A stretch of DNA of 5,944 nucleotides from Chloroflexota bacterium. GTDB taxonomy: Bacteria; Chloroflexota; Anaerolineae; B4-G1. Where the stretch lies: positions 1 through 5,944 of the forward strand of contig QMOE01000171.1 in the NCBI GenBank assembly GCA_003648125.1, read 5' to 3'. The notes under the pieces were generated by a model. That model had not been told where the DNA came from, did no database searches, and was given only the letters and a program-made list of their open reading frames with translations. Position 1 is the stretch's first letter, and every line of letters starts with the position of its first letter. The translations under genes were made by a program, and so were the position numbers. This document shows, in pieces, positions 2,604 to 2,785 of the stretch.

Positions 2604-2636
2604 AACAAAACCAGCCTTCCGAGGTCGGAAGGCTGG
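2604..2636 (-). terminator. Intrinsic terminator in the proS leader (attenuator)
   Basis: Reading the minus strand, CCAGCCTTCCGA (2636-2625) and TCGGAAGGCTGG (2622-2611) are exact complements. About 10-11 pairs form around a 4-6-base loop, followed by TTTTGTT (2610-2604). The T-run is present only for minus-strand transcription. It lies about 165 bases before the proS start and 37 bases after the leader-peptide stop, inside the proS transcript. That is where an attenuator belongs rather than a terminator ending another gene. The nearest upstream minus-strand gene ends at 3024, with a consensus promoter in between. Confidence 0.9.
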
Positions 2637-2715
2637 CAGGGCGGGCAAAAAACTGGCGATGCCCAGGCAGCGCTAACCGAACCCTCGAAACGGGCGCGGT
2701 GGCGGGCTGCTAGGG
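2611..2715 (-). promoter_or_regulatory. Attenuator RNA of proS with alternative 1:2, 2:3 and 3:4 pairings
   Basis: Four segments can be assigned by eye on the minus-strand RNA. Segment 1 is CCCUAGCAGC (2715-2706), inside the proline codons. Segment 2 is GCUGCCUGGGC (2671-2661), starting just after the leader-peptide stop. Segment 3 is GCCCUGCCAGC (2642-2632), which runs into the terminator 5' arm. Segment 4 is the terminator 3' arm (2622-2611). Segments 1:2 give 8 pairs around a 2x2 internal loop; 2:3 give 9 pairs with two mismatches; 3:4 is the terminator. A ribosome waiting at any proline codon from 12 to 16 would cover segment 1 and leave 2 free to pair with 3. One at the stop codon (2675-2673) would cover 2 and allow termination. 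This matches the trp/his/pheST mechanism. Pairings were found by hand, without energy calculation. Confidence 0.75.
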
Positions 2716-2738
2716 GTGGGAAACGTGTACTCCATCAT
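2673..2738 (-). CDS. Proline-rich leader peptide of proS
   Basis: This short ORF has 21 codons from ATG 2738-2736, or 20 from the adjacent ATG at 2735-2733, and ends with TAG 2675-2673. GAGGA (2745-2741) is 2 bases before the first ATG and 5 before the second, which favours the second. Six of the 21 codons are proline (positions 7, 9, 12, 13, 14, 16) within the stretch TFPTPSSPPPRP, using CCC, CCT, CCG and CCA. The promoter -10 element ends only 19 bases before the first ATG, so the 5' untranslated region is about a dozen bases. A strong intrinsic terminator follows, then proS. The product is presumably not functional as a peptide; its translation would report the supply of charged tRNA-Pro. 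The Pro-Pro-Pro triplet may also make it sensitive to EF-P. Confidence 0.82.
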   Translation of the reverse strand: MMEYTFPTPSSPPPRPFRGFG

Positions 2739-2756
2739 TATCCTCGACTGGGCAGC

Positions 2757-2785
2757 ATTTTAACACGAGATGAGATACCTGTCAA
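2757..2785 (-). promoter_or_regulatory. Promoter of the proS leader transcript
   Basis: The minus strand carries TTGACA (2785-2780), a 17-base spacer and TAAAAT (2762-2757). That is a perfect -35, optimal spacing and a 5/6 -10 hexamer for the housekeeping sigma factor. The predicted transcript start is near 2750, about 5 bases before the leader-peptide Shine-Dalgarno and about 310 bases before the proS ATG. Confidence 0.88.

Follow-up and report, generated by a model that had tools for sequence, protein, structure and literature searches.

Is the prolyl-tRNA synthetase gene (proS) of this Chloroflexota bacterium controlled by a ribosome that translates a short, proline-rich leader peptide? 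The question is raised by a stretch of 5,944 nucleotides (hereafter the window), whose minus strand carries, in this order, a promoter, a Shine-Dalgarno sequence, a 21-codon open reading frame (ORF), an intrinsic terminator and proS. Our analysis answers, with high confidence, that proS is governed by ribosome-mediated transcription attenuation in which the leader senses charged tRNA-Pro, and this switch very probably turns a low level of charged tRNA-Pro into more ProS enzyme. The basis of this reading is the parts themselves, their conservation, computed folds, the average co-evolution of two pairing segments, and the occurrence, before other amino-acid genes, of similar leaders whose codons mostly match; from these we infer that the proS leader is actually transcribed, terminated and subject to stalling, and that it responds to proline.

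A proline-codon leader upstream of proS

The downstream gene, at 682-2439 on the minus strand, encodes a bacterial-type (family II) proline--tRNA ligase of 585 amino acids, which matches the NCBIfam proline--tRNA ligase model with 674.9 bits (cut-off 558). All leader features lie on the same strand. The sigma-70-like promoter at 2757-2785 (TTGACA, 17 nt, TAAAAT) matches the consensus at 11 of 12 positions and places the predicted transcription start near 2750. It is followed by a Shine-Dalgarno GAGG at 2742-2745 and by the leader ORF at 2673-2738, which starts with ATG ATG (the second at 2735), opens with ATGATGGAG and closes with TAG. The encoded 21-residue peptide, MMEYTFPTPSSPPPRPFRGFG, contains six proline codons (CCC, CCT, CCG, CCA, CCG and CCG) and includes three consecutive prolines (PPP). 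The likely control codons are CCC ACC CCT at 2712-2720 (Pro7-x-Pro9), with a bias to CCT at the second proline.

A spacer of 35 nt separates the ORF from the intrinsic terminator at 2605-2637. Its arms, 2637-2626 and 2621-2610, form a stem of 12 pairs, 8 of them GC, with a hairpin energy of -23.2 kcal/mol, and a T-rich tail (TTTGTT) follows. The leader as a whole folds with z = -2.99, and 1 of 200 shuffles was as low. Across the window, the numbers of promoter-like sites (4 against 2.0 +/- 1.6 in shuffles) and terminator-like sites (7 against 4.9 +/- 2.2) are unremarkable as counts. The initial annotation, made from the sequence alone, had listed a promoter, a Shine-Dalgarno sequence, a proline ORF of 20-21 codons with six proline codons, a strong terminator and proS; every one of these parts is borne out.

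The leader is kept in the nearest relatives of the window

We infer membership of the window in the GTDB family to which G284 (the L099 genome) belongs, since the window proS is 82% identical to that of L151 and the leader itself is alike. Eleven genomes of this family were searched and six have a window-type proS. The leader is present at five of these six loci (L099, L151, L153, L154 and L155); it is lacking at L152, which has the same upstream region as L005.

All six window-type leaders (the window and the five loci) have exactly 21 codons, and M1, P7, P9, P14, P16 and G21 are invariant among them. The remaining residues drift, with peptide identities to the window of 33-71%. In the DNA alignment of the six leaders the ORF is free of gaps, and indels occur in the spacer before the terminator. 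A seventh window-type leader found later, L158, is likewise 21 codons long; P9, P14 and P16 are retained, and position 7 is threonine. Each of the leaders of L151, L099, L153, L154 and L155 is preceded by TTGACA with TAGAAT, TTAACA or TATTAT as the -10 hexamer. GAGG likewise precedes the ORF in L151, L099 and L153, and AGGA/GGAG does so in L155; the GGAG of L154 is more distant from the ORF. The upstream comparison that had been proposed for this locus thus finds, in the nearest relatives, a proline ORF that is kept while its codons and other residues drift, together with a terminator and a complementarity between segments 2 and 3 (defined below) that are kept as well.

Computed folds depend on the position of the ribosome

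We folded the leader RNA with a ribosome placed at chosen codons, its offset from the A-site codon being assumed to be 13 nt. Segment 1 (2692-2715) is the protector, and its 1:2 helix pairs 2715-2692 with 2684-2662. Segment 2, the partner in the antiterminator, spans 2668-2687 and comprises the last codons of the ORF, its stop codon and 5 nt beyond. The part of segment 3 that pairs with it (2620-2635) covers the terminator 5' arm, the loop and the start of the 3' arm. The 2:3 antiterminator joins 2687-2668 with 2635-2620, pairing CGAGG..TCGG..AG.GCTG with CAGC.CT.CCGA.CCTCG. The initial annotation had foreseen both alternatives and drawn them differently. The 1:2 helix comes out larger than proposed there (2715-2706 with 2671-2661), and the segments named for the antiterminator (2671-2661 and 2642-2632) give way to those above. 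The stop codon, said to lie right before segment 2, is at 2675-2673 and falls within it.

For the window without a ribosome, the 1:2 helix forms and segment 3 stays free. Once a stall at Pro9 or Pro14 is imposed, segment 2 pairs with segment 3. When the ribosome sits on the stop codon, only a weak fold is left (-4.0 kcal/mol), so the terminator can form. As computed, then, the 1:2, 2:3 and 3:4 pairings are mutually exclusive and tied to ribosome position, and the expectation that a stall would free segment 2 for the terminator 5' arm, and that a ribosome at the stop codon would not, agrees with the folds.

The other window-type leaders behave similarly, with some exceptions. A stall at Pro9 leaves 11-16 of 19 nt of segment 3 paired in all six leaders. 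A stall at Pro14 gives 10-16 of 19 nt in five of six (8 in L155), and one at Pro16 gives 11-12 of 19 nt in four of six (3 in L154 and 8 in L155); the antiterminator therefore fails in L155 at Pro14 and in L154 and L155 at Pro16. With no ribosome, 0-6 of 19 nt are paired in five of the six leaders. L155 is the weakest case, since its segment 3 is paired (14/19) without any ribosome. A ribosome at the stop codon leaves 3-10 of 19 nt paired across the six leaders, with energies of -1.2 to -9.0 kcal/mol.

These folds suggest the following model. RNA polymerase would start near 2750 and a ribosome would begin the 21-codon peptide. When Pro-tRNA is plentiful, the ribosome would reach the stop codon inside segment 2 and mask that segment; the terminator (3:4) would then form and transcription would end near 2605. 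When Pro-tRNA is short, the ribosome would stall at the proline codons and cover segment 1, leaving segment 2 free to pair with the terminator 5' arm, so that RNA polymerase would read on into proS. If the leader is not translated, the 1:2 hairpin would keep segment 2 off segment 3, making termination the default.

Proline leaders recur upstream of proS

We took the best 80 of at least 590 confirmed loci from a ProS protein scan. By script and reading, 15 of these 80 have an ORF with proline codons followed by a terminator before proS (L004, L006, L007, L009, L014, L015, L016, L018, L019, L022, L026, L031, L035, L036 and L040), and all 15 are labelled Chloroflexota or groups within Chloroflexota. 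A search of the class around G005 covered 298 genomes, 157 of which have proS at 1e-150; it supplied 30 loci and 40 of the other 127 upstream regions.

For a blind scan we assembled 141 distinct proS upstream regions, window included, after removal of 10 duplicates, and asked for a promoter, an ORF and a terminator. Fifteen loci qualify, and 14 of the 15, L119 and L125 among them, contain P.P. The same scan for other amino acids yields Ser 4 as the next best, then Ala 3 and Gly 3. The fifteenth candidate, L001, lacks proline. Five leaders missed by the scan (L009, L016, L018, L026 and L099) were added by reading, so that scan and reading together find a proline leader in 19 of 141 upstream regions. 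None was seen in the remaining 122, of which four (L030, L086, L094 and L128) offer under 220 nt of upstream sequence. The proS start is uncertain in six upstream regions (L064, L066, L069, L073, L116 and L117), where no ATG, GTG or TTG stands at the matched start. Close relatives (L081, L082 and L005) are among the upstream regions with no visible leader.

Twenty-four proS leaders, window included, share the promoter/ORF/terminator layout, and their modes of initiation appear to be of two kinds. In the 17 leaders outside the window type, the ORF starts 6-10 nt past the -10 hexamer and hence these are probably leaderless, whereas the window ORF starts 18 or 21 nt past it and has a Shine-Dalgarno sequence, as is typical of the window type. 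L026, L036 and L019 have poor -35 boxes.

In the first P.P, the second proline is CCT in 20 of the 24 leaders (which are related sequences), compared with 13.6% CCT among 382 proline codons counted across 16 proS genes from those loci. Because CCCT also pairs in segment 1, there may be an RNA reason for this bias. Proline density in the 24 leaders is 0.179 in the ORF frame against 0.128 and 0.164 in the other frames, so density alone does not single out the ORF frame; the other two frames are interrupted by stops in 18 and 20 of the 24. Two or more consecutive prolines occur in five of 24 leaders (the window, L151, L158, L006 and L019).

As a separate remark, the window has the motif CCCTAGC at 2715-2709, and AGC or AGT follows the second proline in 13 of 24 proS leaders. 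When the preceding codon ends in C, this creates a TAG in the -1 frame after CCC, which might suggest a frameshift stop or merely a pairing constraint.

Segments 2 and 3 co-evolve on average in a swap test

In a duplex test with 1000 dinucleotide shuffles, segment 2 of the window binds the terminator arm with -21.1 kcal/mol, as opposed to -14.0 +/- 2.5 kcal/mol in shuffles (p = 0.009). Across leaders, p < 0.05 is reached in 13 of 23, with a combined Fisher value of 2e-13 that is too small because the leaders are related. Other segment limits give p = 0.042 for the window and, for 20 members of the RNA scaffold described in the next section, p < 0.05 in six of 20 (Fisher 1.3e-8).

A swap test compares cognate with non-cognate partners: for the 24 proS leaders the cognate mean is -19.8 against -15.6 for non-cognate pairs, and 0 of 20,000 permutations were as low. 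The same holds when L151, L099 and L153 are removed (21 leaders, 0 of 20,000) and for the 20 scaffold members (-22.2 against -20.0, again 0 of 20,000). By this test, segments 2 and 3 co-evolve on average. The average hides a wide spread, as a leader's own partner ranks first in only nine of 24 proS leaders and three of 20 scaffold members, and L007, L009, L026, L151 and L158 rank 11th or worse of 24.

Other statistics count against the model. Among the 22 leaders scored, the total fold energy of the stalled state falls below shuffles (p < 0.05) in only five, and the pairing of segment 3 in that state reaches p < 0.05 in only six; this analysis cut segment 3 short, and the window is significant on neither measure (p = 0.33 and 0.52). 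In pair counts on six sequences, 2:3 is 80.0% paired versus 81.4% in shuffles, with no covariation above shuffles, and slid versions reach at most 55.6%. The 1:2 and 3:4 stems together are 86.7% paired versus 84.7% (4 of 500 shuffles as high); their covariation score is matched by 48 of 500 shuffles, which is little covariation across the six sequences. Alignment A4 (26 rows, with six opposite-strand matches, four of them partial) was left out of these counts. The covariation that the initial annotation had asked for in the stems is seen only in the swap test and not in the pair counts on six sequences.

Similar leaders precede other amino acid genes

A covariance model, R1, was built from six proS leaders only and run on 396 genomes of the class. 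At E <= 0.01, 29 genomes have a match and 31 matches are listed; because the E-values are per genome, about four chance matches are expected. Two of the 31 are model members and 17 others were read; 12 weaker ones (L173-L184) complete the list. Five of those read lie before proS, one of family II (L158), one of family I (L163), and three before a two-gene operon followed by family-I proS (L162, L164 and L165). Five lie before glnA (L159, L166, L168, L172 and L185), with three to seven Gln or slightly more, and two before citrate synthase (L160 and L242), with AQQP, 2-3 Gln and 2 Pro. Single matches precede lysX (L161, a leader with 5 Arg and 2 Lys), argC (L167, 4 Arg but also 4 Pro) and acetolactate synthase (L171, named by eye, a Leu/Val/Ile leader). 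L169 and L170 showed no convincing leader on reading.

An additional search of 16 chosen genomes, 15 of them with a match, added serA (phosphoglycerate dehydrogenase) with a Ser/Gly-rich leader ORF and terminator (L237), another citrate synthase, whose leader contains 8 Pro and 1 Gln (L243), and two more proline leaders about 1.2 kb upstream of family-I proS (L238 and L239); the match L241 had no convincing leader. NCBIfam supplied the gene names for L158, L160, L161, L163, L166, L167, L242, L237 and L243, and for the remaining glnA genes and the family-I proS at L162, L164 and L165 the names were given by likeness to these.

Homologous leaders that keep the terminator and lose the ORF or its proline codons had been named in advance as evidence against attenuation. 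All R1-type matches read before proS keep proline codons, which favours attenuation; L001 and L083, on the other side, have a terminator-like hairpin right after a promoter and no proline ORF.

Counts from targeted searches run partly counter to these associations, and those for glnA and argC lend them weaker support. Six glnA leaders combine Gln runs of three to seven with a terminator, namely the five R1 matches and L195, which has six Gln. A glnA search in the class matched 112 of 199 genomes, and among the 30 upstream regions read, Gln runs of at least three occur only in L190 (from the same genome as L168) and L195; the blind count for glnA is higher for Ala (9) and Arg (7) than for Gln (3). 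Since the CTG of segment 2 pairs with CAG, a Gln codon, the preference of R1 for Gln leaders may be partly structural. For argC, ORFs with at least three Arg or Lys and a terminator were flagged in five of 13 loci (L221-L224 and L229), a count that has no control for other amino acids and whose terminator rule overlooked the L161 leader in L220. Of 12 family-I proS loci found, 10 were read over 1.5 kb upstream or less at contig ends; eight have no proline leader, and L253 and L254 do.

Leader codons appear mostly to follow the downstream gene: glnA has Gln, argC and lysX have Arg, serA has Ser/Gly and family-I proS has Pro. The shared features, a segment 2 of the form ..GGTTAG.GCTG.. and a terminator arm CCAGCCT.., form a recognisable RNA scaffold, and these relatives, with codons mostly set per gene, offer a test of attenuator origin, in which a scaffold copied and recoded stands against convergence. 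We give even chances to the proposal that Anaerolineae have one homologous attenuator scaffold whose control codons were re-coded per gene, a family specific to this lineage as opposed to independent inventions. In that reading, held at the same even odds, both proS families would have received Pro codons, glnA Gln, citrate synthase Gln/Pro, argC and lysX Arg, and serA Ser/Gly.

Several details of these loci were seen in passing. In L162, L164, L165, L238 and L239 the proline leader precedes an operon that runs from a metallophosphoesterase-like gene (by eye) to family-I proS; in the L165 operon no NCBIfam model matches this first gene at 1e-10, and it too was judged metallophosphoesterase-like by eye. 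A ParB-like-looking gene lies between in the operon loci read further (L186-L188). Arg-rich ORFs followed by terminators stand upstream of argC, or of an operon holding argC, in L221, L222, L223 and L224. Citrate synthase (L160, L242 and L243) is an odd target for a Gln/Pro signal unless it feeds the glutamate family.

Alternative explanations

Could a translated, stalling ORF sense something other than tRNA-Pro charging, such as polyproline stalling (EF-P activity) or a nascent-chain effect? The PPP of the window and the runs of two or more prolines in five of 24 leaders fit this idea, and Salmonella mgtP, with three consecutive proline codons, is a precedent for a proline-codon leader (PMC3641672). 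However, it is the separated prolines (P.P) that are conserved and not the consecutive ones, and polyproline sensing leaves unexplained why the codons change with the downstream gene, to Gln runs before glnA and Arg before argC and lysX. We consider it unlikely. Control of the terminator by a structured RNA, either a T-box or an unknown riboswitch, would make the ORF a by-product of a C-rich segment 1. Pairing of C-rich proline codons with a G-rich segment 2 could by itself yield CCN triplets, proline density is also 0.128 and 0.164 in the other frames, and T-box matches occur at two other proS upstream regions, L051 (a Chloroflexia MAG, 87.5 bits) and L054 (a MAG labelled Proteobacteria, 62.8 bits), both below the RF00230 gathering score of 93. 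Yet no T-box (Rfam RF00230) is among the Rfam matches in the window at E <= 1, ORF length and four proline positions are kept in six of six leaders with indels outside the ORF only, and the codons turn to Gln, Arg or Ser/Gly in similar leaders, which makes this explanation very improbable.

An ordinary terminator with a fortuitous ORF and no regulation would fit two facts: terminator-like sites are no rarity, the window having 7 with 4.9 expected, and the arrangement is absent from most sampled proS upstream regions. The recurrence in 24 proS leaders, the specificity for proline and the average co-evolution of segments 2 and 3 speak against it, and we regard it as barely credible. On the evidence given for each, the T-box, the plain terminator and the EF-P sensor were all considered and rejected for the proS leader. 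Ribosome-mediated attenuation, which the initial annotation had proposed, is supported by the nearest relatives and the 24 leaders, the folds and the swap test.

Relation to known leader peptides

The classical attenuators are those of trp, his and pheST in enterobacteria. The proS leader shares with them an ORF of cognate codons, the 1:2/2:3/3:4 alternatives, an intrinsic terminator and a synthetase or biosynthetic gene downstream. It differs in sensing (as predicted) proline, in targeting proS and in its Chloroflexota host. T-boxes, which bind uncharged tRNA directly and involve no ORF, commonly control synthetases at the RNA level; a T-box before proS (RF00230) would share with the proS leader its target and the kind of signal, and is absent from the Rfam matches at E <= 1 in the window. 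Rfam at gathering finds tRNAs only in 13 and 15 loci of relatives. If attenuation is confirmed here, proS and Chloroflexota would join the genes and phyla that use it.

In Salmonella, the proline codons of mgtP respond to proline, and mgtP and mgtL, like the proS leader, are short ORFs with proline codons, which respond to charged tRNA-Pro (PMC3641672). Unlike the proS leader, they control Mg2+ transporter genes, and these leaders are described there as not resembling, or lacking, intrinsic terminators, with Rho acting for mgtA and proposed for mgtCBR (PMC3641672). A proline leader of the Rho type would have no intrinsic terminator, and the window leader has one. Two further papers predict leader-peptide attenuation of synthetases outside Proteobacteria, as we do for proS, with amino acids and phyla other than those of the proS leader: in bacilli, a His leader peptide upstream of hisS/hisZ (PMC2965389), and attenuators of trpS and leuS in Streptomyces (PMC1262725). 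As of 2010, leader peptides were known from Proteobacteria and Actinobacteria, with Firmicutes then added (PMC2965389), and PMC2494555 reports T-boxes from two genomes of Dehalococcoides, linked with ile and trp genes. Among the papers listed from open-access PubMed Central, none deals with a proline leader upstream of proS or a Gln leader upstream of glnA, and none joins leader peptide and attenuation terms with Anaerolineae or Chloroflexus. Attenuation is described for proS or Chloroflexota in none of the papers so listed; Lopatovskaya et al. (2010), cited in PMC4833913, may hold cases.

Neighbouring elements

Between the terminator and proS lies a palindromic element of 128 nt (2469-2596) whose ends are inverted repeats of 20 nt (CAGCAATTCCCGTT..) and which encloses an inner palindrome (GTAGCCGCGATTTC..GAAATCGCGGCTAC). 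It resembles a small mobile element of the non-autonomous kind, and L151 is without it. Four Rfam matches occur in the window at E <= 1, none of them reaching gathering; the sole bacterial element among them, the S4-Bacteroidia leader at 2496-2514 (20.1 bits, gathering 34.7), falls within this palindromic element. A further palindrome, REP-like by eye, lies upstream of the leader promoter at 2890-2995 (TCATTGCGAGAAGCG...CTCGCAATGACA).
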